Shown: piece after piece, positions 3,940-26,967 of the stretch
How positions within the stretch are numbered: the stretch's first letter is position 1
Layout: each line of letters opens with the position of its first letter
DNA from: an uncultured Lachnospiraceae bacterium
GTDB lineage: Bacteria; Bacillota; Clostridia; Lachnospirales; Lachnospiraceae
Reading direction: 5' to 3'
DNA length: 26,967 bases
NCBI GenBank assembly: GCA_934418125.1
Contig: CAKRWT010000030.1
Span: forward strand, 1-26,967
Program-made: the position numbers and the translations under genes
Notes under the pieces: model-generated
Database searches by the model: none
Told to the model about the DNA's origin: nothing
What the model saw: only the letters and a program-made list of their open reading frames with translations

Positions 3940-3986
3940 AAAGAAACAGTAAGTTTTTTCTTGCGAATTTTTAATCAAAAGCATAG

Positions 3987-4016
3987 TTGACAGACTAGCT
4001 GTGGTTAGTGTAATAT
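3987..4016 (+). promoter_or_regulatory. Promoter upstream of the DUF3793-flavodoxin genes
   Basis: TTGACA (3987-3992), an 18-bp spacer and TAATAT (4011-4016). The spacer holds CTAG-N6-TTAG, a possible weak version of the TTAG/CTAA operator. A full site follows at 4023-4040. Confidence 0.7.
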
Positions 4017-4022
4017 AACAAC

Positions 4023-4040
4023 AGTTAGACAAGACTAACT
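4023..4040. promoter_or_regulatory. TTAG-N6-CTAA palindrome 1 (candidate DtxR-type metal box)
   Basis: AGTTAG-ACAAGA-CTAACT has perfect 6-bp arms. It sits just downstream of the -10 at 4011, where a bound repressor would block initiation. The half-site resembles the TTAGG...CCTAA arms of DtxR/IdeR operators, and the downstream flavodoxin is a classic iron-limitation gene. The regulator is inferred. Confidence 0.6.
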
Positions 4041-4041
4041 A

Positions 4042-4078
4042 AAAGATATCCGGTGTCTTGAACACACCGGATATCTTT
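4042..4078. terminator. Strong 15-bp hairpin between two metal boxes
   Basis: A perfect 15-bp stem (arms 4042-4056 and 4064-4078, core ATATCCGGTGT) with a 7-nt loop. No long T-run follows (CTTTCAAAA), so termination is uncertain. It lies between the two TTAG-N6-CTAA palindromes and could attenuate the transcript from 3987 or act as a leader element. The palindromic A/T edges would let it act on either strand. Confidence 0.5.
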
Positions 4079-4088
4079 CAAAACAATA

Positions 4089-4104
4089 GTTAGACACAAC
4101 TAAC
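4089..4104. promoter_or_regulatory. TTAG-N6-CTAA palindrome 2 (candidate DtxR-type metal box)
   Basis: GTTAG-ACACAA-CTAAC, nearly identical to the site at 4024-4039 and 65 bp downstream of it. It lies 27 bp before the DUF3793 start codon. Confidence 0.6.
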
Positions 4105-4130
4105 AAACAGTACATATAAGAGGTTTCACT

Positions 4131-4682
4131 ATGTTTGAAAAATATCTGGTTGAAAATTGTTCTCCTACATTGGCATCATTAAAAACCGCAAACTTATTCT
4201 CCTATACGTATCCCTCGATAGCGGAACTAAATGAGACAATTCAGTATTGGAACAATCAGATGAAGGAAAAAGGAGTGAAGCTTACGGTACTGAGAGTAAA
4301 TGGCGCGACCGCCCTGGTTTATGTATATCGGGAGGCTTACTTATCCAACGATTTTCAAAAACCGGGCGTAGCGCAGCTTTTACGTCACTTTGGCTACGAG
4401 AGCATTAAGGTGGAGGAAGCCATTGAGCATCTGAAAGAAAGGCTGATTGATATTGAAGATTTTCCTCATGAGATAGGACTGTTTTTAGGGTATCCAGTCA
4501 AAGATGTAGCGGGTTTCCTCTTTTACAAAGGCAGCCATTGCAAGTGTACCGGATGCTGGAAGGTATATGACAATGAGCTGGAAGCGCTGAGAACTTTCGC
4601 CATGTTCGATAAGTGCAGAAAGATTTATGTAAACTTATGGAACCAGGGAAGAAGCATTATGAAGCTGACGGTGGCAGCGTAA
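4131..4682 (+). CDS. DUF3793 family protein
   Basis: A 183-residue cytosolic protein of unknown function. The block HEIGLFLGYPVKDVAGFLFYKG (written here only as family landmark, residues about 118-138) and the following C-K-C-T-G-C-W cluster (about 144-150) are typical of DUF3793. In Firmicutes this family often sits next to flavodoxin genes, as it does here (86 bp before fldA). The clustered cysteines could bind a metal or an Fe-S cluster, but this is inference. AGAGG precedes the ATG by 7 nt. Two TTAG-N6-CTAA palindromes and a strong hairpin upstream point to metal-dependent control. Confidence 0.75.
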   Translation: MFEKYLVENCSPTLASLKTANLFSYTYPSIAELNETIQYWNNQMKEKGVKLTVLRVNGATALVYVYREAYLSNDFQKPGVAQLLRHFGYESIKVEEAIEHLKERLIDIEDFPHEIGLFLGYPVKDVAGFLFYKGSHCKCTGCWKVYDNELEALRTFAMFDKCRKIYVNLWNQGRSIMKLTVAA

Positions 4683-13294: not shown

Positions 13295-14458
13295 ATGGGA
13301 ACAATTCTTGACTATTTGAAGGAGTATGGCGATTATACGTTTGAGGAAAGACCGCTCAGTGAGGTGGACAGTCTGGTGTTGTGCCAGTTCAGTTATCTGA
13401 AATTTGATGGGATGGTGCCGGGTATCCGGGAGAAGGATCACTTTGTGACCATGCAGGAACTGGCAGAACACGCTGATTATGATTCTTTATATGCAGACGA
13501 AAGGTATCGGCAGGATAATACCGCACTGTTTCGCGGTATGCTTTCCGCCAGTCGGTTTAATACCTTACAGATAATGTATTATGTAAACCAAATAGACACA
13601 AAAAAGGAAATGCAGTTTTCGGCAGTCACTTTCCGGCTTTCCAATGGGGGTTATTATGTGGCCTTCCGTGGAACCGATGAGACCATTGTAGGCTGGAAAG
13701 AGGATTTGAATCTGGCTTTTTCCAATCCAACACCGGGACAACTGATGAGCGTGGAATATCTGGAACAGGTAGCAGAACACATTTCAGGCCATTTCTATGT
13801 GGGTGGTCATTCCAAAGGGGGCAATCTGGCAACCTATGCTTCAATGTTTGCGGAAAAACAGGTACGTGACAGAATAATGAAAGTTTTTGACCATGATGGT
13901 CCTGGCTTTCGACCGGAGATTAAACAGAAAGGTGCGTACGGAGAAATTGAAGATAGGATATGTAAGACCATACCACATTCTTCTTTGGTTGGAATGTTGT
14001 TATATTCTAATGGAAAATATCAAGTGGTGGAGAGCAAAAGCATTGGACTGGCACAGCACAACCCTTATACCTGGATTGTAAAAGATGGAGAGTTTCACAA
14101 AGTAAATCAGCTATATGCCGGCAGAAGATTCATAGATGAAACCATGAATCAGTGGATTTTATCTTTAAGCCAGGAACAGGTACACACCTTCGTGGATACC
14201 CTTTATGAGGTTGTTCTTTCCTCGGAGACAGATAACCTGATTGATTTTACTGCCAATGGTTTTAAGAGTATCCAGCGCATCACCGCAGCCCTGAAAGCGA
14301 TTGATGAAGAATCTGCCAGGGCAATCCTGCAGATTATGAGAGCTCTTTTTGACATGGCATCCATCAATGCAAGAGAAATTGTCAAGAGCAAGAAGGAATC
14401 AGACCGGGGCAAGTTTGAGGAAGGAATTTTACAACTGGAACAGTTATTTAAAAAGTAA
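13295..14458 (+). CDS. DUF2974 (Mbeg1-like) alpha/beta hydrolase
   Basis: A 387-residue predicted lipase/esterase-like cytosolic enzyme. It has a family-typical N-terminus (DYLKEYGDYTFEERPLSEVD), the oxyanion-side block VAFRGTDETIVGWKEDL (about 128-144), and the nucleophile elbow G-H-S-K-G-G with Ser at 173. An acidic Asp follows in KVFDHDGPGF, and a catalytic His is likely later (GLAQHNPY). The substrate is unknown. AAGGGTGG precedes the ATG. It is the last gene of the operon starting at 11451 and ends 10 bp before the stop of the convergent gene. Confidence 0.82.
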   Translation: MGTILDYLKEYGDYTFEERPLSEVDSLVLCQFSYLKFDGMVPGIREKDHFVTMQELAEHADYDSLYADERYRQDNTALFRGMLSASRFNTLQIMYYVNQIDTKKEMQFSAVTFRLSNGGYYVAFRGTDETIVGWKEDLNLAFSNPTPGQLMSVEYLEQVAEHISGHFYVGGHSKGGNLATYASMFAEKQVRDRIMKVFDHDGPGFRPEIKQKGAYGEIEDRICKTIPHSSLVGMLLYSNGKYQVVESKSIGLAQHNPYTWIVKDGEFHKVNQLYAGRRFIDETMNQWILSLSQEQVHTFVDTLYEVVLSSETDNLIDFTANGFKSIQRITAALKAIDEESARAILQIMRALFDMASINAREIVKSKKESDRGKFEEGILQLEQLFKK

Positions 14459-14468
14459 AGAGAAAGCA

Positions 14469-15116
14469 TCAGACAGCGGTGAGCGACAGAAAGGATTGCA
14501 ATAGAAGGTCGCCACCGTTTTCCAGGATACGCTCCGGATGCCACTGTACACCCCAGATGGGAAGAAATTCATGTTGGATACCCTCTATCGTGTTATCACC
14601 GGCACGGCATACCGCAAAGAGATGCTGCCCCAGATGGTCAATGGACTGATGATGGGCAGAGTTGACCAGGGTACTGGTACCATAGAGCTGATAAAAGAAG
14701 TCGTTGCAGTTTAAAATGCTGTGATAAACGTAGTGGTACTGGTCTCTTGTAATCCATTTATGTAAACCAGCAGTGGGAATGTCCTGGAAGATGGTTCCTC
14801 CAAAGTGAATATTGATAACCTGAATGCCTTTGCAGATACCAAGCACAGGCTTTTTTTGTGCAATAAAATATTCCAATGCCTGAAACTGCAGCAGGTCTAA
14901 TTCGGTATCAATATGGTGGGAACCATGATTTTCCTGTCCGAAAAAAGCAGGGGTAACATCGCCGCCGCCGGGAAGAAGCAGGTGGGTAGCGCTGACAATG
15001 GCAGCCGTATTTAAAGTAACCATATAGGAAACATTAAGACTACGTAGTGCCTGTTCGTAGTTTCTGGTATCTTCTAATCTGCCTACAATGGCAACACAGG
15101 GAGAAAAAGGATGCAT
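14469..15116 (-). CDS. Gamma-glutamyl-gamma-aminobutyrate hydrolase-like class I amidotransferase (peptidase C26)
   Basis: 215 residues with the full glutamine-amidotransferase triad: nucleophile C95 in LGICKG, and H193/E195 in QWHPE. The GGGD(V)TPAFFG block (50-60) is typical of the PuuD-type branch. These enzymes cleave gamma-glutamyl amides, for example in putrescine breakdown, but no puu pathway genes are near, so the substrate is open. It is slightly shorter than E. coli PuuD. The minus-strand start has GGAGG 5 nt upstream. The crRNA-like gene upstream reads in the same direction but ends at its own terminator 58 bp before this start. Confidence 0.85.
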   Translation of the reverse strand: MHPFSPCVAIVGRLEDTRNYEQALRSLNVSYMVTLNTAAIVSATHLLLPGGGDVTPAFFGQENHGSHHIDTELDLLQFQALEYFIAQKKPVLGICKGIQVINIHFGGTIFQDIPTAGLHKWITRDQYHYVYHSILNCNDFFYQLYGTSTLVNSAHHQSIDHLGQHLFAVCRAGDNTIEGIQHEFLPIWGVQWHPERILENGGDLLLQSFLSLTAV

Positions 15117-15173
15117 GAAATTCCTCCGGTAAATAGGGGTTCTTTATATGGTATGTGGGAGTGGGGAAAAGGT

Positions 15174-15211
15174 GAAAATAAAAAGTAAGGTCTAGGAAGA
15201 ACCTTACTTTT
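15174..15211 (-). terminator. Terminator of the crRNA-like RNA (bidirectional stem)
   Basis: Minus strand: stem AAAAGTAAGGT (15211-15201) / ACCTTACTTTT (15191-15181), 9-nt loop, then TATTTTC. The T-rich tail on both strands means it may also work on the plus strand. Its 5' arm overlaps guide positions 11-21 of the crRNA-like RNA. Confidence 0.8.
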
Positions 15212-15249
15212 TAATAAAACTATTTCAATCCACAGTTAATATAACCGAC
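15175..15249 (-). ncRNA. CreR-like Cas-regulating crRNA (pseudo-repeat plus guide)
   Basis: About 75 nt, read on the minus strand. The 28-nt pseudo-repeat (15249-15222) keeps the repeat's 5' GTCG, a degenerate GTTA-TAT-TAAC hairpin instead of the CGCTCCC/GGGAGCG stem, and the exact last 12 nt GTGGATTGAAAT, which holds the type I-C 5' handle. The guide (from 15221 downward) begins AGTTTTATTAAAAAGTAA. It matches 17 of 18 nt at 15301-15318 in the cas promoter, next to a TTC PAM. The RNA has its own promoter and an intrinsic terminator, and no second pseudo-repeat. This fits the known concept of Cas-regulating RNAs that recruit the effector to repress cas genes. No transcript has been measured here. 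Confidence 0.85.
15222..15249 (-). repeat. Degenerate CRISPR repeat outside the array
   Basis: 28 nt compared with 32 nt in the array. Both ends are conserved (GTCG and GTGGATTGAAAT), and the middle is replaced by a shorter stem. Orientation is opposite to the array and the cas operon. Confidence 0.85.
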
Positions 15250-15254
15250 GATTT

Positions 15255-15283
15255 ATTTTAACTCAAATAATTCATAAGGTCAA
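15255..15283 (-). promoter_or_regulatory. Promoter of the crRNA-like RNA
   Basis: On the minus strand: TTGACC (complement of 15278-15283), 17-bp spacer, TAAAAT (complement of 15255-15260). The predicted start of transcription, 15247-15249, coincides with the first bases of the pseudo-repeat. Confidence 0.75.
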
Positions 15284-15297
15284 ATTTTATAATATTT

Positions 15298-15335
15298 TTC
15301 AGTTTAATTAAAAAGTAAATTGACAGATAAAGTAT
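15298..15335 (+). promoter_or_regulatory. Predicted Cascade target site in the cas promoter (PAM + protospacer)
   Basis: TTC (15298-15300) followed by AGTTTAATTAAAAAGTAA (15301-15318), which equals the guide of the crRNA-like RNA except at position 6. A 35-nt footprint would run to 15335 and cover the -35 TTGACA. Beyond position 18 the match is no better than chance, too short for Cas3 cleavage to be expected. Confidence 0.82.
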
Positions 15336-15348
15336 AGCGTGATAATAT
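15320..15348 (+). promoter_or_regulatory. cas operon promoter
   Basis: TTGACA (15320-15325), 17-bp spacer, TAATAT (15343-15348): near consensus, implying strong basal activity that needs a brake. Transcription would start near 15355. The rest of the 304-bp gap 15117-15420 is AT-rich leader sequence and contains no protein gene. Confidence 0.8.
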
Positions 15349-15420
15349 AAAACTATGAACTACATAAATAAAAATAAAGATAAACAGAAAGTGTGATTGG
15401 GAAGAAGGGATTAGAACGGA

Positions 15421-17826
15421 ATGATAGCACATATAAAAAGGGATAATCCGCAGGAAACGGAATCGGTAAAAGAACATATCGAGAGAACCTGTTCAGCTTG
15501 TGAGAAAAAAGGAGCGCGATGCTGGATAAAGAAAATCATGAAAGTATGTGGAGAACTGCATGATTTTGGTAAATGTAGTTTACCTTTTGCAGAATATATC
15601 TGTGCAGATGAACAGACTCAAAGAAAACTGAAAGGAAAGATACCTCATGCGGCAGCGGGTGCGAAATATTTGTACGAGCAGTATAAGGATAGCCAGCAGG
15701 CGGACGAAAGATTACTGGCAGAGTTGATTGCTTATGCAGTAGCCGCGCATCATGGCATATTTGACATGGTAGAGGAATCTGGGAGAGACTGTTTTACAGA
15801 TAAACTGCAAAAGGTGGAAGATTTTGAGGATACTTGTAAAAATGCCAGAATGGAATACCTGGATGACAAGGCATTGCAGGAAGATTTCAAAGAAGCGGTA
15901 AAGGAATTTCAGAACATCAAAGAAAAAATGAAGATGGTCATGGCAGAAAATGTAACAAACCTTAATAAAACGAAACTGGAGGAACAGTATTTGTTTCTGC
16001 TAGGGGCATTGCAAAGACTAATGCTTTCCATTCTGATTGATGCCGACTGGGAGAGCACGGCTGCTTTTATGGAAAGGCAGGAGAATAGAAAGAAAGAGAT
16101 GACTGCACCGGAGGAAGTCTTTAAGCGGGCAAAAGAAAACTTCCAGTTCTATATGGAGCAAAAGCAGGAAGAAACGAAAGGCAGGAAGCTGACGGAAAAG
16201 GAGAAAGAGATAGGAATCGTTAGGGAAGAATTACAAAACCAGTGTAAGGCTTTTGGACAGAAACCAGCAGGAATTTATTGCCTGCCCATTCCTACCGGAG
16301 GAGGCAAGACCCTGAGCAGTCTGGCCTATGCCCTGGAGTTTTGTGAGGCTCATCCGGAAACAGAGCGGATTTTCTATATTGCACCTTATACAAGTGTTAT
16401 CGAACAGAATGCAGACGTGTTCCGGAAAGCTGTCGGGAATGACGAATGGGTATTAGAGCATCATTCTGCGGTTGTTAGGGCGCAACAGCACCAAGGAGAG
16501 GAGTACCGGCAAGAAGATACAGAGAGCCTGGATGTCAACTGGGAAGAACCTTTTATCTGTACGACACTGGTACAATTCATGAACACTCTGTTTTCCAATC
16601 AGAAGAAGGCGGTGCGCAGAATGCATCGTCTGGTTAATGCTGTTGTTATTATAGATGAGGTGCAGGCAATGCCTGTTAAGTGCATTAATACCTTTAACTA
16701 TATGATGAATTTCCTCCGTGCAGTCTGCAACACGACTACTATTTTGTGTACCGCGACACAGCCCAGATTGGGGAATACGGAATGTCCTATCTGCTATAGC
16801 AGTCCGAAAAGTATGATTGAAGGCGTGGAAGAATGGTTTGAACGGCTGGACAGAGTGGAAATACAAACTCCTGTGAGAGGCGAGAAGTATTCGATTACTT
16901 CACTGGCAGACGAGATAGTAAGTGCAAGAGAAAAGTATTGTTCGATTCTGGTGGTATTAAATACAAAAATGGCAGTACGGAAACTATATGATGCCCTGAT
17001 GGACCGGGGAATAGCGAAAGAGTACCTTACCACCAATCTGTGTGCCGACCATAGAAGTAACCGGATTAGCAAAATAAAAGAAAAACTGAAGCGACAGGAA
17101 TCGGTTATCGTAATCAGCACGAATCTGATAGAAGCAGGCGTGGATATTTCTTTTTCCTGTGTTTACCGATCCATGACCGGCTTGGACAGCCTTGCTCAGA
17201 CGGCGGGAAGATGTAACCGAAATGGAGAATTGGAGAAAGGTTTGATTTGCCTTATCGAGTTGGAGGGCGAGGGTACAGGAAGTATGAAGGAACTGCAATG
17301 TCACATGGCGGCTACAAGGGAGTTGTTGTATGAAAACAATTTTTCCCAAGGAGAATTATTGAAACCGGAAGCCATGGATAAGTACTATGAACTATTGTAC
17401 CGACAGGATGAGATACGGGATGGGATGAATTTCCCGGTAAAAGACCTTGATACAGACCTGAGGAAACTTTTAACAAAGGGATTCCAAAATGCAAAAACGC
17501 CACATGTGATGCAACAGGCATATCAGACAGTTGGGGAATGCTATCAGGTAATTGCTGAGAATTCTTTTGGTGTGATAGTTCCTTATGGAGAAGGGAAAAA
17601 ATTGATTGATGAAATCAGAAATACTACCGACAGGGAAGTTATCAGGAACTGTATCAGGAGGGCACAGCGTTATACAGTTAATGTGAGAGCTGATAAACTG
17701 GATGAAATGAGAGGAATACTGGAAAGTGTGAATGAGCAATTCCCAGGTATTTATATGCTTGTATCGCCGGGAAGTTATCAGGATGAATTTGGACTTGCAG
17801 AGGAATTAGGTACACTAATTTATTAA
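15421..17826 (+). CDS. cas3: CRISPR-associated helicase/nuclease Cas3 (type I-C)
   Basis: 801 residues. Cas3 is the nuclease-helicase recruited by Cascade to unwind and degrade target DNA. The N-terminal HD nuclease domain carries H19, H47-D48 (ELHDFGK) and the AAHHG motif near 112-116. The SF2 helicase has Walker A PTGGGKT (291-297), the DEAD-type box D-E-V-Q (412-415), TATQPR and the motif VI QTAGRCNR (593-600). All key residues are present, so it should be active. ATG 15421 follows GAAGGGA. It is first in the operon, 18 bp from cas5c, with a consensus promoter that the upstream crRNA-like RNA appears to target. Confidence 0.97.
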   Translation: MIAHIKRDNPQETESVKEHIERTCSACEKKGARCWIKKIMKVCGELHDFGKCSLPFAEYICADEQTQRKLKGKIPHAAAGAKYLYEQYKDSQQADERLLAELIAYAVAAHHGIFDMVEESGRDCFTDKLQKVEDFEDTCKNARMEYLDDKALQEDFKEAVKEFQNIKEKMKMVMAENVTNLNKTKLEEQYLFLLGALQRLMLSILIDADWESTAAFMERQENRKKEMTAPEEVFKRAKENFQFYMEQKQEETKGRKLTEKEKEIGIVREELQNQCKAFGQKPAGIYCLPIPTGGGKTLSSLAYALEFCEAHPETERIFYIAPYTSVIEQNADVFRKAVGNDEWVLEHHSAVVRAQQHQGEEYRQEDTESLDVNWEEPFICTTLVQFMNTLFSNQKKAVRRMHRLVNAVVIIDEVQAMPVKCINTFNYMMNFLRAVCNTTTILCTATQPRLGNTECPICYSSPKSMIEGVEEWFERLDRVEIQTPVRGEKYSITSLADEIVSAREKYCSILVVLNTKMAVRKLYDALMDRGIAKEYLTTNLCADHRSNRISKIKEKLKRQESVIVISTNLIEAGVDISFSCVYRSMTGLDSLAQTAGRCNRNGELEKGLICLIELEGEGTGSMKELQCHMAATRELLYENNFSQGELLKPEAMDKYYELLYRQDEIRDGMNFPVKDLDTDLRKLLTKGFQNAKTPHVMQQAYQTVGECYQVIAENSFGVIVPYGEGKKLIDEIRNTTDREVIRNCIRRAQRYTVNVRADKLDEMRGILESVNEQFPGIYMLVSPGSYQDEFGLAEELGTLIY

Positions 17827-17843: not shown

Positions 17844-18578
17844 ATGGAAAAAGAGAATTCAATTGAGTACAGTGTCTGGGGAAAATATGCACTTTTTACA
17901 GACCCCTTTTCTAAGGCGGGCGGGGAGAAAATCAGTTATCAAATTCCAACGTACCAGGCACTGAAAGGAATTACTGAGTCAATTTACTGGAAGCCGACAT
18001 TTATCTGGTACGTGGATGAATGTCGTATTATGAATCCCATACAGACGGAGTCTAAGGGGATGAGACCAATTAAGTACTTTGGAGGAAATGACTTGTCCTA
18101 TTACACGTATCTTCGTAATGTAGAGTATCGTGTGAAAGCTCATTTTGAGTGGAATGAAAACAGACAGGATTTGGTACAGGACAGAAATGAAAATAAGCAC
18201 TACCAAATTGCGAAGAGAATGTTAGAGCGTGGTGGAAGAAGAGACATTTTTCTTGGGACAAGGGAGTGTCAAGGCTATGTGGAACCCTGCAAATTACAGG
18301 AAGGAACGGGAGCGTATGACAATAATAATCTTTCGTTTGGACTGATGGTGCATGGAATTACATATCCGGATGAGGCAGTCAGAGAGGAAGAGAAGGGGAA
18401 GATGACAGTCCGTTTTTGGAATGTAACGATGACCAAGGGAATCATTCGGTTTCCCAGGCCGGAGGAGTGTAGTGTAAGGCGAATCATTAAAGAAATGAAA
18501 GAGAAAGAATTTCAACCAGGTATGAATTTCATGGGACTACAGGAATTTGAAGGAGGTGATATGTTTGACATGGCTTAA
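17844..18578 (+). CDS. cas5c: Cas5c (Cas5d), pre-crRNA endonuclease and Cascade subunit
   Basis: 244 residues. In type I-C systems Cas5c replaces Cas6: it cuts each repeat, leaves an 11-nt 5' handle, and caps the handle end of Cascade. The residues matching the catalytic Tyr and Lys-His of the studied B. halodurans enzyme appear as Y48 (ESIYWKP) and K118-H119 (ENKHYQ), so processing activity is expected. Other landmarks are the N-terminal ferredoxin-like fold (YSVWGKYALFTDP) and GTRECQGYVEP (about 141-151). AGGAAAGGAAGG precedes the ATG. The 3' end overlaps cas8c by 14 bp and contains the cas8c ribosome site. Confidence 0.96.
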   Translation: MEKENSIEYSVWGKYALFTDPFSKAGGEKISYQIPTYQALKGITESIYWKPTFIWYVDECRIMNPIQTESKGMRPIKYFGGNDLSYYTYLRNVEYRVKAHFEWNENRQDLVQDRNENKHYQIAKRMLERGGRRDIFLGTRECQGYVEPCKLQEGTGAYDNNNLSFGLMVHGITYPDEAVREEEKGKMTVRFWNVTMTKGIIRFPRPEECSVRRIIKEMKEKEFQPGMNFMGLQEFEGGDMFDMA

Positions 18579-20496
18579 AGAACTGGAGGAGACATACAAT
18601 GTCTACAGTCACTTGGCGGGAGTTGTCAAGGATGAACAGCCGGTGCTGCTTCCTATATCCCATTCTACTTTTAATGCACAGATAGAGGTGGATTTGGATG
18701 AAGAGGGAAATTTTATAGATTCCCGGAAGGTAGAAAAGGGAGATGCCGTAACGATTATTCCGGTAACGGAAGATTCAGCCGCGAAGGCAAATGGAAATTT
18801 TCCACATCCGTTATGCGACAAACTTTGTTATGTGGCGGGGGACTATTCATCCTATACGGGAGATAGGAGTGAGGAATATTATGAGGCCTATATACAGCAA
18901 TTAAAGGAATGGGTAGATTCGGAAGATAGTTATTATATGGTAAAAGCCATCTATCTATACCTGATAAAAGGAACGTTGATACAGGATCTGGTTAGGACGC
19001 ATAGTCTGGAATTAAATGAAGATGGTATGCTGACCGATGCTATAAAAATTCAAAGTTTGGGACAGACAGGGGCGAATGTAAGATTTCGTGTCTATGGAAA
19101 AGGAAGAAATGAAGAAACTGCGGTCTGGAAAAATCACACGATGTATCAGCAGTTCATAAAATTTTATTCCAAGAGGGCTGGAGTACTAGGGCTTTGTTAT
19201 GCTTCAGGTAAAATGGTTCCCTGTACGTTGAAACATCCTTTCAAAATACGGAATACTGGAGATAAATCAAAAATAATATCGGGAAATGATAACAATGGTT
19301 TTACTTACCGAGGCAGGTTCTTATCCAAAGACCAGACAGTATTGGTAGGATATGAGTTGTCACAGAAAGCACATAGTGCACTTCGATGGCTGATACAGAA
19401 ACAAGGGTATACAAGAGACGAATCGGCGATTGTATGCTGGATGACGAACCGGGATATGCAGGTGCCAGACCCTATGAAGGATTCTGTCAATGCGTATGGA
19501 AACATAAAAGAAATAGACCTGAATGATTTGCTTTCACCAAAGCAAACAGCTCTGGAAGAGAGTGATTCGGGTATGTACTTTGCAAAGAAATTTAGAAATG
19601 CAGTAAAGGGATATGCCTCGAAATTGCAGGAAAATGATAAGATTGCGGTAATTGCCCTGGAGGCGGCAACGGCAGGAAGACTATCCATTGTGTATTATGA
19701 CGTAGTCGGGGCGAAACAATATATGGATGCTATCATGGAATGGCAGGCACATTGCAAGTGGAGAAGGACGGTTCGGCTGGAAAATAAGGAAGAGAAACGG
19801 ACGATTACCCTGGAGTCTACACCATCTCCAAGAGAAATGGCACTGGCAGCGTATGGAGTACAGCGTTCAGAATGGTTGGAAGCAGACAGCAAATTACTTC
19901 GGGCTACGACGAAGAGGCTTCTACCATGCATTACCAGAAAAGGAATGAAGATTCCAACGGATATGATAAAGGCAGCAGCGAGAAGAGCCTCCATGCCGGA
20001 ATCGATGAGTGATTTCGTATGGCGCAATGATGTTCTCAGTGTGGCCTGTGCAATGATTCGGTATAACTATGAGGAAGGAGAAGAAAAAATGGATACCTTT
20101 TTAGAAGACAACAGCAATAACAGAGATGTATTGTTTGGCAGATTATTAGCAGTACTTGATTATAAGGAAAAACGGGCTATGTTTGAACGCGATGAGGATG
20201 GAAAAATTCTGGATGTGAGAACCACAAATGCAAAAAGATATTGGAATACATTCAGCAGCAGACCAAGCAAGACATATCAGACCATAAAAGAGAATCTGAA
20301 TGCTTACGAGAGGAAACTGAGTGGTTTTGAACAGAAGAAGTTCGATGAATGGGAAGGACAGATTGTGAACGCCATACATGCGTGTGGAGGATATAATAAC
20401 CGACCACTTACGGAGTATTATTTGCCGGGGTATTATCAACAGATGGAATATATGAAAGAAGAAATGCAAAGAAACTATACAAAAAAGGAACAGTAG
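18565..20496 (+). CDS. cas8c: Cas8c (Csd1), large Cascade subunit
   Basis: 643 residues. This is the large subunit that recognises the PAM (TTC in this subtype) and helps recruit Cas3. I chose TTG 18565 because AGGAGGTGAT ends just before it (8-nt spacing from AGGAGG) and the resulting N-terminus TWLKELEETYNVYSHLAG is typical of the family. Longer in-frame starts (18547, 18556) overlap that ribosome site. Further landmarks are PISHSTFNAQIEVDLDEEGNF (about 29-49, split description), the central GYELSQKAHSALRWL, and a C-terminal helical bundle. An in-line small-subunit (Cas11c) product from an internal start in the 3' third is known in this subtype and may occur here. Confidence 0.95.
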   Translation: MTWLKELEETYNVYSHLAGVVKDEQPVLLPISHSTFNAQIEVDLDEEGNFIDSRKVEKGDAVTIIPVTEDSAAKANGNFPHPLCDKLCYVAGDYSSYTGDRSEEYYEAYIQQLKEWVDSEDSYYMVKAIYLYLIKGTLIQDLVRTHSLELNEDGMLTDAIKIQSLGQTGANVRFRVYGKGRNEETAVWKNHTMYQQFIKFYSKRAGVLGLCYASGKMVPCTLKHPFKIRNTGDKSKIISGNDNNGFTYRGRFLSKDQTVLVGYELSQKAHSALRWLIQKQGYTRDESAIVCWMTNRDMQVPDPMKDSVNAYGNIKEIDLNDLLSPKQTALEESDSGMYFAKKFRNAVKGYASKLQENDKIAVIALEAATAGRLSIVYYDVVGAKQYMDAIMEWQAHCKWRRTVRLENKEEKRTITLESTPSPREMALAAYGVQRSEWLEADSKLLRATTKRLLPCITRKGMKIPTDMIKAAARRASMPESMSDFVWRNDVLSVACAMIRYNYEEGEEKMDTFLEDNSNNRDVLFGRLLAVLDYKEKRAMFERDEDGKILDVRTTNAKRYWNTFSSRPSKTYQTIKENLNAYERKLSGFEQKKFDEWEGQIVNAIHACGGYNNRPLTEYYLPGYYQQMEYMKEEMQRNYTKKEQ

Positions 20497-20512
20497 AAAA
20501 GGAGAAGGAATC

Positions 20513-21358
20513 ATGGGAGAATTTACAAACAAAATTGACTTTGCAGCACTGGTAATGGTTAAGAATGCAAATCCAAACGGAGACCCTTTAAATGGTAATC
20601 GTCCAAGGGAAACTTATGACGGATACGGAGAAATCTCAGATGTTTGCATCAAGCGTAAAATCAGAAACAGACTACAGGATATGGGTGAAAGCATTTTTGT
20701 GCAAAGCGATGACAGAACAGATGACGGATGCAAGAGTCTTGCAGAGAGAGTAAAGAAAAGTGAAGAGCTTAAGAAAGCAGGAAAGGCAAAAGATAGAGAA
20801 ACGTATGCGAAGGTAGCCTGCGAAAAGTGGATTGATGTCAGAAGTTTTGGACAGGTTTTTGCATTTAAGGATGACAGTGTTTCTGTAGGGGTAAGAGGAC
20901 CTGTTTCCGTTCATTCGGCTTTCAGTGTCCTTCCGGTATCGGTTGACAGTATGCAGATTACCAAAAGCGTGAACAGCGAAACCAAGGAAGGAAAATCCTC
21001 CGATACCATGGGAATGAAGCATACTATTTATTCTGCTTTATACGTTATTAAAGGAAGCATCAATCATCAGCTTGCTGAGAAAACTGGTTTTAGCGATGAA
21101 GATGCCGAGAAAATAAAAGAGGCACTGAGAACCTTGTTTGTTAATGACAGCTCATCGGCAAGACCAGATGGCAGTATGGAAGTTTGTAAACTTTACTGGT
21201 GGAAGCATAATTGTGCGGCTGGACAATATTCGTCGGCAAAAGTTCACCGGTTATTGGAAGTAAAGGCAAAAGTAGATGACCCAAAAGAGTTTGCAGATTA
21301 TGAAGTAGTTTTGAATACGTTACCGGATCTGAATGTAGAAGAGATTGAGGGAATTTAA
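20513..21358 (+). CDS. cas7c: Cas7c (Csd2), Cascade backbone subunit
   Basis: 281 residues. It forms the multi-copy backbone that coats the spacer part of the crRNA and kinks every sixth base outward. The family signature NANPNGDPLNGNRPRETYDG (18-37) is clear, as are GVRGPVSVHSAF (about 128-139) and the SDTMGMKHT(I)Y block. Length is normal. AAAAGGAGAAGG precedes the ATG. The TAA stop is immediately followed by the ATG of cas4, indicating translational coupling. Confidence 0.97.
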   Translation: MGEFTNKIDFAALVMVKNANPNGDPLNGNRPRETYDGYGEISDVCIKRKIRNRLQDMGESIFVQSDDRTDDGCKSLAERVKKSEELKKAGKAKDRETYAKVACEKWIDVRSFGQVFAFKDDSVSVGVRGPVSVHSAFSVLPVSVDSMQITKSVNSETKEGKSSDTMGMKHTIYSALYVIKGSINHQLAEKTGFSDEDAEKIKEALRTLFVNDSSSARPDGSMEVCKLYWWKHNCAAGQYSSAKVHRLLEVKAKVDDPKEFADYEVVLNTLPDLNVEEIEGI

Positions 21359-22081
21359 ATGGTTACGGAAGAAGACTATCTATTGCTTTCCGGAATCCAG
21401 CACTTTGCTTTTTGCAGAAGACAATGGGCTCTGATTCATATCGAACAGCAATGGGCAGACAATTACCAGACTACATCCGGAAATCTGATGCACAAAAGGG
21501 CGCATGACGAAGAATTGTTTGAAAAGCGTGGAGATATTCTGATTGCAAGAGGATTACGTATTGCATCAAAAGAACTGGGAATGAGTGGGCAATGTGATGT
21601 GGTGGAGTTTCATAAGGCGGAGGATGGTGTTTCTGTTTTTTCCTATGAAGGCAAATGGAGCATAGTGCCAGTAGAATATAAAAATGGACTTCCAAAAGAG
21701 AATCAGGCAGATGAATTGCAACTTTGCACACAGGCGATGTGCCTAGAAGAGATGTTTGTTACAACTATTCCAGAGGGATACTTGTATTATGGAAAGAACA
21801 GGAGAAGAACCCATGTAGAGTTTACCGGGGAACTGCGAAAAATGGTATTGCAATATAGCAAGGAAATGCATGATTTATACCGAAAAGGATATACACCCAA
21901 AGTAAGATATAAAAAGCAATGCGGAGCCTGTTCCCTTAAAAATCTGTGCCTGCCCAAGATACAGAAGACCGAGTCTGTACATAATTATATTGAGAAAAAT
22001 ATTGCAAGTTCCAACAAGAAAAATGTGGATAGCGAAGAAAATGGAATATATGAAAAGGAGGGAGAAACGAAAGATGCGTAA
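21359..22081 (+). CDS. cas4: Cas4 RecB-like nuclease
   Basis: 240 residues, somewhat longer than the usual 200-220 because of a C-terminal tail of about 25 residues. Cas4 trims prespacers and selects the PAM during spacer capture. It shows the N-terminal Fe-S cysteine C19 (FAFCRRQW), the RecB nuclease residues H/E (HKRAHDEELF), D in QCDVVEF and E-Y-K (PVEYKNG), and the three C-terminal cysteines C-G-A-C-x5-C (CGACSLKNLC). All conserved positions are present. It starts directly after the cas7c stop and overlaps cas1 by 8 bp. Confidence 0.95.
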   Translation: MVTEEDYLLLSGIQHFAFCRRQWALIHIEQQWADNYQTTSGNLMHKRAHDEELFEKRGDILIARGLRIASKELGMSGQCDVVEFHKAEDGVSVFSYEGKWSIVPVEYKNGLPKENQADELQLCTQAMCLEEMFVTTIPEGYLYYGKNRRRTHVEFTGELRKMVLQYSKEMHDLYRKGYTPKVRYKKQCGACSLKNLCLPKIQKTESVHNYIEKNIASSNKKNVDSEENGIYEKEGETKDA

Positions 22082-23108
22082 ACTGTTGAATACGCTGTAT
22101 GTTATGACAAAAGACTGCTATCTGACATTAGATGGGGAAAATATTGTAATACTGCTGGAGGACAAAACGCTGGGAAGATTTCCACTTCATACCCTTGAAA
22201 ACATTGTATGTTTTACTTACAAAGGGGCATCACCGGCATTGATGGGAGCATGTGCAGAACGAATGGTAGGGATGACGTTTTATACACCAAACGGAAAATT
22301 CCTTGCTCGTACAGTGGGAAAAGAGTATGGTAATGTACTGCTAAGAAAAGAACAGTACCGCATCTCGGATAAAAAGGAAGAAAGCCTGAAATTTGCAAAG
22401 AATATGATAATAGGAAAAATATTCAATGGACGATGGAGCATTGAACGAACAATGCGGGATCATGCTTATCGGATTGATAAAGAAAAACTGAAACAGACTT
22501 CAAATTATTTGCAAGGAGTGCTTTCTGAAAAGGTAAAACAGGTTTCTTCCTTGGATGAACTCAGAGGAGTGGAAGGAAATGCGGCAGAACAGTATTTTTC
22601 CATCTTTAATGAGTTGATATTAAATCAAAAGGAAGAATTTTGTTTCACAACCAGAAATCGAAGACCACCATTGGATAATGTAAATGCAGCTCTATCTTTT
22701 GCCTATACGATTCTGGCAGGCGAATGTGCCAATGCATTATACGGCGTTGGGCTTGACCCTTATGTTGGATTTATGCATGCAGACAGACCCGGGAGAAAGT
22801 CCCTGGCACTGGATATGATGGAAGAGTTAAGACCGATTATGGCAGACAGAATGATTCTTACACTCATCAATACCAAGGCACTTCAGAAAAATCACTTTGA
22901 ATGTCAAAGTGATGGAGCAGTGCTTCTTAATGAAGATGGTAGAAAAGTATTCTTTAATGCATGGCAGACACACAAGAAAGAGATGATTACGCATCCCTTT
23001 TTGAAAGAGAAGATTGAGTGGGGATTGGTTCCGTATGTACAGGCATTATTATTAGCAAGAACCATTCGTGGAGATTTGGATGAATATCCTACATTTATGT
23101 GGAAGTAG
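22074..23108 (+). CDS. cas1: Cas1 integrase
   Basis: 344 residues. Cas1 is the metal-dependent integrase that inserts new spacers at the leader end. Catalytic positions visible are E167 (LRGVEGNAAE), H235 (VGFMHADRPGR) and the acidic cluster at 247-251 (DMMEE). ATG 22074 is preferred: AAGGAGGGAG lies 9 nt upstream and the N-terminus RKLLNTLYVMT is typical of I-C Cas1. An upstream in-frame ATG at 21990 would give an extra lysine-rich extension and overlap cas4 by 92 bp. The stop is followed at once by the cas2 region. Confidence 0.97.
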   Translation: MRKLLNTLYVMTKDCYLTLDGENIVILLEDKTLGRFPLHTLENIVCFTYKGASPALMGACAERMVGMTFYTPNGKFLARTVGKEYGNVLLRKEQYRISDKKEESLKFAKNMIIGKIFNGRWSIERTMRDHAYRIDKEKLKQTSNYLQGVLSEKVKQVSSLDELRGVEGNAAEQYFSIFNELILNQKEEFCFTTRNRRPPLDNVNAALSFAYTILAGECANALYGVGLDPYVGFMHADRPGRKSLALDMMEELRPIMADRMILTLINTKALQKNHFECQSDGAVLLNEDGRKVFFNAWQTHKKEMITHPFLKEKIEWGLVPYVQALLLARTIRGDLDEYPTFMWK

Positions 23109-23117
23109 GTGATTGAT

Positions 23118-23408
23118 GTGTTAGTATTGATTACGTACGATGTATGTACACAAGATGCTGCTGGAAAGAAGAGATTGCGAAAGGTTGCAAAGGAGTGTGT
23201 TAACTATGGACAAAGAGTGCAAAACTCTGTTTTTGAATGTATTTTGGATTCTTCACAACTTTTGTTATTGAAGGATAAACTTTCCTCATTGATTAACGTC
23301 GAGGAAGATAGTTTGAGGTTCTACTATCTAGGAAACAAGTATCAGACAAAAGTGGAGCACTTTGGAACAAAGAGTACTTACGAAGCCGAGGGTACGCTCA
23401 TGGTATAA
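23118..23408 (+). CDS. cas2: Cas2, integrase partner
   Basis: 96 residues from GTG 23118. Cas2 is the dimeric scaffold of the Cas1-Cas2 integrase. Landmarks are the beta-strand LVLITYDV with its Asp, GKKRLRKVAKECVNYGQRV (about 18-36, typical of I-C) and NSVFEC. I prefer GTG 23118 over GTG 23109 because AGGTGAT lies at the same spacing seen for cas8c and the length matches the usual 96 residues; the alternative adds three residues. It is the last cas gene, directly before the array leader. Confidence 0.96.
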   Translation: MLVLITYDVCTQDAAGKKRLRKVAKECVNYGQRVQNSVFECILDSSQLLLLKDKLSSLINVEEDSLRFYYLGNKYQTKVEHFGTKSTYEAEGTLMV

Positions 23409-23454: not shown

Positions 23455-23570
23455 AAAATAAGACAGAAAAAGGGTTGGAATTAGTTTATAAGTAATTGCT
23501 ATTAATATTTTTTAGTTATTTGTACTAAAGCAGGAATACCTGAAGAAGTTGAAAATTGGTTATTTTTGCT
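23409..23570 (+). promoter_or_regulatory. CRISPR leader
   Basis: 162 bp of AT-rich sequence between cas2 and the first repeat, as expected for the leader holding the array promoter and integration signals. A weak -35 TTGGAA (23475-23480) is present, but I cannot fix the -10. The first repeat begins directly after TATTTTTGCT. Confidence 0.8.
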
Positions 23571-23735
23571 GTCGCTCCCCTCGTGGGAGCGTGGATTGAA
23601 ATCCGACCAGCCACCCCCATGCTGGGATAGGTCGGCGGTCGCTCCCCTCGTGGGAGCGTGGATTGAAATCTTTATATTTCCTTTGTTGTCACGTTTATGA
23701 TACGTCGCTCCCCTCGTGGGAGCGTGGATTGAAAT

Positions 23736-23770
23736 TCAAAAATAACCGGGTCAAAATTGGGGAGCGACAT
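23736..23770 (+). repeat. Spacer 3, intact copy of a duplicated spacer
   Basis: 35 bp. The first 31 bp recur at 24598-24628. Its last 12 bp form a 22-bp perfect palindrome with the start of the following repeat (23759-23780, arms GGGGAGCGAC and GTCGCTCCCC around AT). Confidence 0.95.
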
Positions 23771-24597
23771 GTCGCTCCCCTCGTGGGAGCGTGGATTGAA
23801 ATATTCCAGTCATATGTACCAGTACAAAACTCCAAGCGTCGCTCCCCTCGTGGGAGCGTGGATTGAAATAACTTGGCGTCGGCTTCCTCTCTGGCAAGAA
23901 ATACGTCGCTCCCCTCGTGGGAGCGTGGATTGAAATTTGCCCTTGTCTCTGTAATTTGCCTTGTAGTGGGTCGCTCCCCTCGTGGGAGCGTGGATTGAAA
24001 TAGAGGAAACAGAGGAAGACGCAGATATTATAGACGTCGCTCCCCTCGTGGGAGCGTGGATTGAAATCCGGTTTATGAATGGGGAAATAGACGCTACCGC
24101 GGTCGCTCCCCTCGTGGGAGCGTGGATTGAAATAATTCTCGTACTTACAACCAACGTGACCGCCTTACGTCGCTCCCCTCGTGGGAGCGTGGATTGAAAT
24201 ATGCAGACTCCCGGAGCTGTTGCTCCTGCCCCGGTGTCGCTCCCCTCGTGGGAGCGTGGATTGAAATAGATATTAACAAAGCATTGGAAGAATTATTGAA
24301 GTCGCTCCCCTCGTGGGAGCGTGGATTGAAATTGTCACAACAAATCCTACAACATCAACTGCTGCATTGTCGCTCCCCTCGTGGGAGCGTGGATTGAAAT
24401 ACGGACATACAGGATGTCGCCCGGCCCATACGCGTCGCTCCCCTCGTGGGAGCGTGGATTGAAATCTGTCTGCTTGTCTTATCGGAACGTATGACAAGGG
24501 TCGCTCCCCTCGTGGGAGCGTGGATTGAAATCTAATCCGGCATTAGTAAAATAATCACGCAAATAGTCGCTCCCCTCGTGGGAGCGTGGATTGAAAT

Positions 24598-24639
24598 TCA
24601 AAAATAACCGGGTCAAAATTGGGGAGCGTGGATTGAAAT
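24598..24639 (+). repeat. Second copy of spacer 3 fused to a truncated repeat
   Basis: 42 bp where 67 bp (35-bp spacer plus 32-bp repeat) would be expected. The spacer sequence runs straight into GGGAGCGTGGATTGAAAT. A 25-bp deletion between two GGGAGCG copies, one in the spacer and one in the repeat, explains the junction exactly. The retained 3' handle has lost the 5' stem arm, so processing here is probably impaired. Confidence 0.93.
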
Positions 24640-25207
24640 ACCATCACTTTTGCTGCGGATTCAGCGACAGTCATGTCGCTCCCCTCGTGGGAGCGTGGAT
24701 TGAAATACGCAGAATGTAAACATATACAGCCCGCGCGAACGTCGCTCCCCTCGTGGGAGCGTGGATTGAAATGGGAACAGGTATTTGCTATCGGGGTTAT
24801 AGTGATCGTCGCTCCCCTCGTGGGAGCGTGGATTGAAATTGTGGACATGCCGCTGCGGGGAAGATCTGACAGCGTCGCTCCCCTCGTGGGAGCGTGGATT
24901 GAAATACAATCACGACAAGGCAGGACAGAACACCAGCACAGTCGCTCCCCTCGTGGGAGCGTGGATTGAAATCCCTGGTGTTGCAACCGCTAATCCGTGT
25001 GTAAAAGGGTCGCTCCCCTCGTGGGAGCGTGGATTGAAATATTTTCAGAATGGAAATCGGGTCGGAGTAAACCAAGTCGCTCCCCTCGTGGGAGCGTGGA
25101 TTGAAATCTTTTTACTCGGCATGATATGCCTGTAAGAAGATGTCGCTCCCCTCGTGGGAGCGTGGATTGAAATGTTTAGCCAGTAAAAAACATTGTCCAA
25201 ACAATAA

Positions 25208-25438
<231 letters not shown>

Positions 25439-26967
25439 TGAATCCGACCAGTTCTGTGCCCTCAAAATCGTCGCTCCCCTCGTGGGAGCGTGGATTGAAA
25501 TCGCTTTTTCTTTTGGCGTAATTACTTTGATTGTATGCGTCGCTCCCCTCGTGGGAGCGTGGATTGAAATCATGGCAGGACTATATTGACAGTTTGCAGG
25601 AAGGTCGCTCCCCTCGTGGGAGCGTGGATTGAAATTTTATCTGTTTTATCAGACCAACCAGGTAAGTTATCGTCGCTCCCCTCGTGGGAGCGTGGATTGA
25701 AATTCCTACGCGGTATAGGGTGTTACCTGTGGACAGAGTCGCTCCCCTCGTGGGAGCGTGGATTGAAATGTGAAACGCCTAGCGTCTAGGCTGGCACAAA
25801 ACACTGTCGCTCCCCTCGTGGGAGCGTGGATTGAAATCCAAAACTCAGGGTGCAGCCAAGGAAGCTTTTGCCCCGTCGCTCCCCTCGTGGGAGCGTGGAT
25901 TGAAATTCGCCGTAGGTCACTACCTCTCCGGTGCGCCAGTCGTCGCTCCCCTCGTGGGAGCGTGGATTGAAATTTTTACAATATTTTGGACGAATATCAA
26001 GATGAATGTCGCTCCCCTCGTGGGAGCGTGGATTGAAATACATTCTGTAGTTTTATTATAGTATACAACTGCCAGTCGCTCCCCTCGTGGGAGCGTGGAT
26101 TGAAATATGGAAGAGTACACAGGCACAAAGAAAGCGTGAGTCGCTCCCCTCGTGGGAGCGTGGATTGAAATGCCGTAGCGTCAGATCTTGCGAACGTGTG
26201 CGAATGTCGCTCCCCTCGTGGGAGCGTGGATTGAAATTACAATTAGTTTACGGATTTGACAGATGACTTTGTCGCTCCCCTCGTGGGAGCGTGGATTGAA
26301 ATCTTTTCCAGTGCATCGAAATCGTAATCATTCTGTTTGTCGCTCCCCTCGTGGGAGCGTGGATTGAAATCTCGGTACAATCACAACTGTTGCAGGATTA
26401 TTTACGTCGCTCCCCTCGTGGGAGCGTGAATTGAAATAGGATGCACAGCAAAACAAATTTGCACATCTTAGTCGCTCCCCTCGTGGGAGCGTGGATTGAA
26501 ATAAGGACAGAAGCGTTAAAAATACAACAGTTTTGGGTCGCTCCCCTCGTGGGAGCGTGGATTGAAATCAAACGTCCGGAAAAAGAAAGGAGCGTCTACA
26601 TGAGTCGCTCCCCTCGTGGGAGCGTGGATTGAAATCGTGATTACACCCTAAAGGGTGGACGGAAAAAAGACGTCGCTCCCCTCGTGGGAGCGTGGATTGA
26701 AATAAGAATTAAAAGACGTAGGAATATGTCAATTTATGGTCGCTCCCCTCGTGGGAGCGTGGATTGAAATCTACATTGATGGCTTGTACGGCTTTGCGCT
26801 TAATGTCGCTCCCCTCGTGGGAGCGTGGATTGAAATCGTCAGCACAGGAAACTTGGCTACACTGTCTACGTCGCTCCCCTCGTGGGAGCGTGGATTGTAA
26901 TCTCTATCTGGCTGTTTAAACCTACGTAGATATTTGTCGCTCCCCTCGTGGGAGCGTGGATTGAAAT

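Follow-up and report, generated by a model that had tools for sequence, protein, structure and literature searches.

A crRNA-like gene with a guide matching the cas promoter region of its own type I-C locus

The window, that is, the whole stretch of 26,967 nucleotides that was analysed, carries on its minus strand a gene of the CreR type whose guide matches the cas promoter region of its own type I-C locus, and by analogy with known cas-regulating RNAs its transcript very probably directs Cascade to repress cas. Fourteen other loci carry differing guides that match their own upstream DNA, from which it follows that Cascade likely represses its own production.

The type I-C locus and its array

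The type I-C locus of the window is complete, running from cas3 through cas2 and then into the array:

15421..17826, plus strand: cas3, first gene of the operon (TIGR01587, TIGR01596)
17844..23408, plus strand: type I-C cas5d, cas8c, cas7, cas4, cas1 and cas2 (TIGR01876, TIGR01863, TIGR02589, TIGR00372, TIGR03640 and TIGR01573)
23571..26967, plus strand: CRISPR array with 49 exact copies of GTCGCTCCCCTCGTGGGAGCGTGGATTGAAAT in view, reaching the end of the window

A Cas6 gene is absent from this operon, so that Cas5d would process the RNA. The array repeat consists of GTC, a stem (CGCTCCC-ctcgt-GGGAGCG) and then the handle. Some irregularities were also seen inside the array. At 23759-23780 the last bases of a spacer, GGGGAGCGAC, are the reverse complement of GTCGCTCCCC, with which the repeat begins two bases further on, and the resulting 10-base inverted repeat spans the border between spacer and repeat; the repeats at 26406-26437 and 26870-26901 each have one altered handle base (GTGAATTGAAAT and GTGGATTGTAAT, respectively); and the repeat-to-repeat distance at 24543-24652 is 109 against the usual 66 or so.

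Anatomy of the crRNA-like element

Upstream of cas3 lies a solitary unit with the parts of a crRNA gene, read on the minus strand:

15278..15283, minus strand: predicted -35 of the crRNA-like gene, TTGACC (consensus scan)
15255..15260, minus strand: predicted -10 of the crRNA-like gene, TAAAAT (consensus scan)
15222..15249, minus strand: degenerate repeat GTCGGTTATATTAACTGTGGATTGAAAT, composed of GTC shared with the array repeat, the stem CGGTTA/TAACTG and the handle
15222..15232, minus strand: 11-nt crRNA 5' handle TGGATTGAAAT, the same as the 3' end of the array repeat
15204..15221, minus strand: guide positions 1-18, AGTTTTATTAAAAAGTAA, directly after the handle
15175..15213, minus strand: hairpin of 14 pairs with a loop of 7, followed by TTTT (likely terminator by a looser rule)

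Outside the array, the I-C handle occurs only at 15222-15232 (at most one mismatch allowed, window before position 23500), and it lies 189 bp from the start of cas3. The stem of the degenerate repeat (CGGTTA-TAT-TAACTG, in which 15247-15242 pairs with 15238-15233) closes directly on the handle as in the array repeat. Folded alone, the degenerate repeat reaches -2.7 kcal/mol compared to -12.7 kcal/mol for the array repeat, and the minimum-energy fold of the predicted RNA does not include this weak hairpin.

The putative promoter (TTGACC-17-TAAAAT, 15283-15255) agrees with the consensus at 10 of 12 positions, a scan result that is not evidence of function, and would start an RNA at about 15248. 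The hairpin at 15175-15213 is likely the terminator of the gene; a stricter terminator scan called none there. It pairs guide positions 9-18, and loading into Cascade would thus need to open it. No Rfam family reached its gathering score.

The guide and its target

The guide is partly complementary to its own cas promoter region, beside a PAM:

15298..15300, plus strand: TTC PAM of the target
15301..15318, plus strand: target of the guide, AGTTTAATTAAAAAGTAA, 17 of 18 identical
15320..15348, plus strand: predicted cas promoter, TTGACA-17-TAATAT, 10 of 12 (consensus scan)

A reading of the sequence made before this analysis had claimed identity of guide and target at positions 1-5 and 7-18, a canonical I-C PAM in front of the target and a near-consensus cas promoter behind it. 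Re-reading both strands (guide 15221-15204, minus; target 15301-15318, plus) confirmed the identity, with the sole mismatch at position 6 (T/A, window 15216 and 15306). The other two statements also held, TTC being given as an I-C PAM in a published study (PMC8406640). The claim that the footprint covers the -35 stood in part: the full protospacer of about 34 nt (15301-15334) does cover it, whereas the paired 18 bp stop at 15318, one base short of the hexamer. Four promoter-like sites were found in 15050-15500 against 1.7 expected. Since the predicted promoters of the RNA and of cas diverge with the target between them, the crRNA-like RNA might, judging from this layout, repress its own gene too.

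In the whole window, only the guide and target sites fit the 17 fixed positions with three or fewer mismatches, while the same search of the shuffled window gave a mean of 0.19 matches, and two or more in 2 of 100 shuffles. Under an order-1 Markov model of both strands of the 304-bp intergenic region, 5.3e-6 exact 17-base matches are expected, and 5.9e-8 when TTC is also required.

Survey of cas3-upstream regions

A handle, a guide and a PAM-flanked target were found together in 15 of 106 cas3-upstream regions, the window included; the remaining 91 have no detectable element, and the distribution is patchy. These regions comprise 89 in the main scored set, left from 95 loci after removal of same-contig duplicates (L039, L040, L042, L069) and of regions shorter than 300 bp, and 17 in a later set, from which L099 was removed as a duplicate of L027. 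L026 is counted among the 15 although its TCC PAM excluded it from the 89-region score.

A Cas3 search of GTDB genomes led to 38 loci (51-58% identity; Lachnospiraceae and kin where the record states it), four of them with less than 200 bp upstream. A minus-strand handle lies upstream of cas3 in nine of the 38, and each of these nine guides matches a site within its own upstream DNA; the site follows TTC in eight loci and TCC in L026. Five more elements (L058, L081, L085, L091, L105) come from distant loci whose Cas3 is 33-35% identical to that of the window; these loci were drawn from 397, 398 and 392 further genomes plus 8 plasmids, at most 30 loci being taken in each of the 397-genome (29 genomes) and 398-genome (48 genomes) draws. 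A Cas3 match was found in 41 plasmid records, and in none of the eight whose I-C loci were examined does the element occur. L110, a Paenibacillus plasmid I-C locus, has a 536-bp gap between cas3 and cas5c (3951-4488), in which no handle-guide-target set was found.

There are 13 distinct guides among the 15 elements, and the guide of the window is unlike the other 14. The nearest Cas3 to that of the window belongs to L033 (58-59% identity), which has no detectable element. On a tree of 42 rows, presence and absence of the element need at least eight changes; this tree leaves out L033, L043, L085, L045 and L048 for their short translations, L085 being a carrier. One further candidate, L049, was set aside as weak (TTT in the place of the PAM, seed 9 of 10). 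When as few as 5 matching handle letters of 11 were accepted, hits came at a background level (242 of 8010 pairs across loci against 19 of 90 own loci), and the count was therefore restricted to elements whose handle is near-intact. The handle pattern itself occurs in 65 of 397 genomes, a count that was excluded as uninformative because arrays match too.

Seven of 14 elements have a stem of five or more pairs directly against the handle (CGGTTA/TAACTG, CACTT/AAGTG, CGCTT/AAGTG, CGCAA/TTGCG); four have a stem of only three pairs and three have none. Additionally, in L085 (guide TTGTGGATTGACATC) and L105 (guide ATGGATTAAAG) either the guide or the sequence beside it looks like the handle, and L058 has a second handle at a distance of 18 nt from the first; guide and operator in these three loci look as though they derived from repeat copies.

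Pairing between guide and target

The elements share a strict pattern of pairing. Over 14 of them, positions 1-5 are matched in 14, 13, 14, 14 and 14 cases, positions 7-11 in 14, 14, 14, 13 and 14, and positions 13-16 in 14, 14, 14 and 13; the exceptions include L023, mismatched at position 2, and L091, mismatched at position 10. Position 12 is matched in four of the 14, and positions 17-20 in 6, 2, 1 and 1, respectively. L105, the fifteenth, pairs through position 17 and is mismatched only at 6 and 12. Position 6 is matched in none of the 15. Pairing thus ends at 18 nt in the window and collapses after 16-18 in its relatives.

The element scan ignored positions 6, 12 and 18 onward, and the pattern there is therefore not a product of selection by the search. 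For chance tests the near-duplicates L037 and L026 were dropped, leaving 13 distinct elements that were treated as independent; the p-values are rough because the elements are partly related. With that reading, position 6 is matched less often than chance predicts (0 matches, 3.2 expected; p 0.026), position 12 conforms to chance (p 0.70) and positions 18-20 are again below chance (4 against 10.2 expected, p 0.013). Positions 21-34, in the same 13 elements, are not below chance (55 against 46 expected).

The sequence-only reading had explained the mismatch at position 6 by a base flipped out in Cascade. Such a base is reported for a type I-B system (PMC8501985), and this much of the explanation stands; for I-C Cascade specifically, no flip-out at position 6 was found in the I-C structure paper searched. 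The matches at position 6 also fall lower than an unread position should give.

Covariation and cross-locus controls

Guides differ between lineages, yet each matches its own upstream DNA. A score combining handle, seed and extension, with TTC required, reached 23 or more within the own locus in 13 of 89 regions, compared to 2 of 1760 sampled pairs of a guide region and a target region from different loci. Of these two pairs, one joins the sister loci L017 and L021 and the other is a true array spacer in L050.

It had been proposed that guide and promoter be compared across related genomes for joint change everywhere except at position 6. The comparison supports the proposal with one position added: 15 loci match themselves, and within a family of related elements the two sides change together except at 6 and 12; the independent divergence that would have spoken against the proposal was not the outcome. 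Pairwise comparison within this family (L015, L023, L027, L025, L037) gives 50 differences at read positions, of which 40 are shared by guide and target, and at positions 6 and 12 a shared change occurs in 0 of 11 differences; these pairwise differences are non-independent. The other ten read differences comprise two that are two-sided and non-matching, four in the target only and four in the guide only, most of which fall at position 17 or, in L023, at position 2. Without the near-duplicate L037 the counts become 24 of 30 at read positions and 0 of 8 at positions 6 and 12. Among other relatives, three of the four read differences between L017 and L021 are shared by guide and target, and the single read difference between L014 and L026 (position 17) is in the target only. 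The searches turned up no close relative of the element in the window, so covariation is shown for related elements and not for direct orthologues.

Location of the targets

The footprint of PAM plus 34 nt overlaps a promoter-like pair in 9 of 14 elements (L105 being outside this count), and in L015, L025, L037 and L027 it covers the -10 and the start. In L023, L014, L026 and L021 it lies 2-12 bp from such a pair, and in L017 no promoter-like pair is within its reach. The targets of L017 and L021 are more than 200 bp from cas3. That of L085 is some 600 bp away from cas3, and whether it is connected with the cas promoter is doubtful.

Comparison with known systems

CreR RNAs, as Liu et al. are said to have described in 2023, reportedly regulate cas in types I-B, I-E and V-A. 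The element of the window resembles them as a solitary unit beside cas, made of a degenerate repeat and a spacer, with a partial, PAM-flanked match to the cas promoter, a pairing too short for interference and a predicted autorepression; guide and promoter are also conserved as a pair across loci, in this case among related elements. It differs from CreR in belonging to type I-C, in an operon devoid of Cas6, and in having a single repeat followed by a hairpin. A CreR of type I-C was not found in the open literature searched, a body that leaves the two likeliest papers outside. Autorepression of cas by CreR in types I-B, I-E and V-A is relieved by crRNAs and Acr proteins (PMC12737573, PMC13131331).

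CreA of the CreTA modules (PMC8501985, PMC9458426) is alike in its pairing: both have a TTC PAM, pairing at 1-5 and 7-11, free positions 6 and 12 and a degenerate repeat, and CreA also has a form with one repeat and a terminator. CreA guides type I-B Cascade, which pairs with 1-5 and 7-11 behind TTC while 6 and 12 are dispensable (PMC8501985). CreA represses the promoter of a toxin RNA, whereas the target in the window lies upstream of cas3 itself.

For type I-C, two studies describe TTC as the PAM in Xanthomonas, with at least 27 matched bp needed for interference (PMC8406640), and repression by I-C Cascade from a TTC-flanked site over a -10 (PMC10865793). The former agrees with the earlier assertion that a match of 18 nt is too short for cleavage. 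Racr RNAs, phage-borne anti-CRISPRs that include RacrIC1 for type I-C, share the solitary unit that mimics an I-C repeat, but are inhibitory without a promoter target (PMC10651486); the element of the window has a target and is host-borne, linked to cas3 and to chromosomal-type genes such as eno and agcS. A scan of viral contigs with two guide patterns gave no match for either.

Standalone-repeat mini-arrays, which Shmakov et al. reportedly described in 2023, are said to be crRNA-like with spacers partly matching cas promoters, and the element of the window shares both traits.

Alternative explanations

Two of the alternatives treat the element as debris. It might be a stray remnant of an array, a solitary repeat end next to an AT-rich stretch whose likeness to a promoter arose by chance; the intergenic DNA upstream of cas3 has indeed 28% GC, the match is A/T-rich, words like AAAAAGTAA recur at 14444-14466 and the stem is degenerate. 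The expectation of 5.9e-8 matches with a PAM, the excess of own-locus over cross-locus scores and above all the joint change of guide and target, which contradicts it, make this very unlikely. An accident of self-targeting, in which an ordinary chromosome-directed guide decayed so as not to kill, would account for a guide, PAM and target arranged as in interference. The element lies outside the array, however, all elements pair over 17-18 nt with positions 18-20 below chance, and the read positions stay in step while the sequences change, so that such an accident seems exceedingly improbable.

The other alternative keeps the regulatory pairing and changes its object: as in CreTA, the RNA would hold down a small toxin encoded in the leader of cas, making the loss of Cascade harmful to the cell, and would not tune cas. 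The pairing grammar reported for CreA is the same (PMC8501985), a 13-codon ORF (MNYINKNKDKQKV, 15355-15396) lies between the promoter and cas3, and the distance of the L017 and L021 targets from cas3 leaves room for a gene. Nevertheless, no annotated gene comes between the targeted promoter and cas3, which begins some 70 bases further on, and the ORF, which came from listing start codons in the cas leader of the window, has no clear ribosome site by eye; we consider a guarded toxin unlikely. Repression of cas by its own Cascade is the reading followed below.

Proposed mechanism and significance

In the mechanism proposed for this autorepression, a short RNA would start at about 15248 and extend to the hairpin whose end lies near 15175, as consensus sites and folding predict. 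Cas5d and Cascade would take up this RNA by way of its intact handle and the weak stem abutting it, and the RNA in the complex is expected to begin with UGGAUUGAAAU, followed by the guide. Bound to TTC and the seed-side match of 17-18 nt, just upstream of the -35, Cascade would hinder RNA polymerase. Pairing of 18 nt falls short of the 27 bp that interference reportedly needs in a different I-C system, and Cas3 would consequently not cut the chromosome. Occupation of Cascade by array crRNAs or anti-CRISPRs would relieve the repression, as with CreR, and more Cas protein would be made.

More broadly, these elements may form a recurrent class of autoregulatory guides peculiar to type I-C, with Cas5d in place of Cas6 as the processing enzyme. 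Guide and operator would co-evolve like lock and key, and the grammar would be fixed: TTC in front, paired bases at 1-5, 7-11 and 13-16, a mismatch at 6 that is obligatory, and a break at 18-20 that is under selection and would hold Cascade in a state of binding without cutting. This wider proposal is tentative, slightly less likely than not. Among the observations themselves, the possibly new ones are that the setting is based on Cas5d, that the element recurs among distant I-C loci and that position 6 is never paired.

If cas is autorepressed in this way, this immune system would sense its spare capacity, and perhaps anti-CRISPR attack, via one crRNA-like RNA. The strict pairing grammar of the 13 distinct guides is a natural data set on where type I complexes bind DNA but do not license its cleavage.
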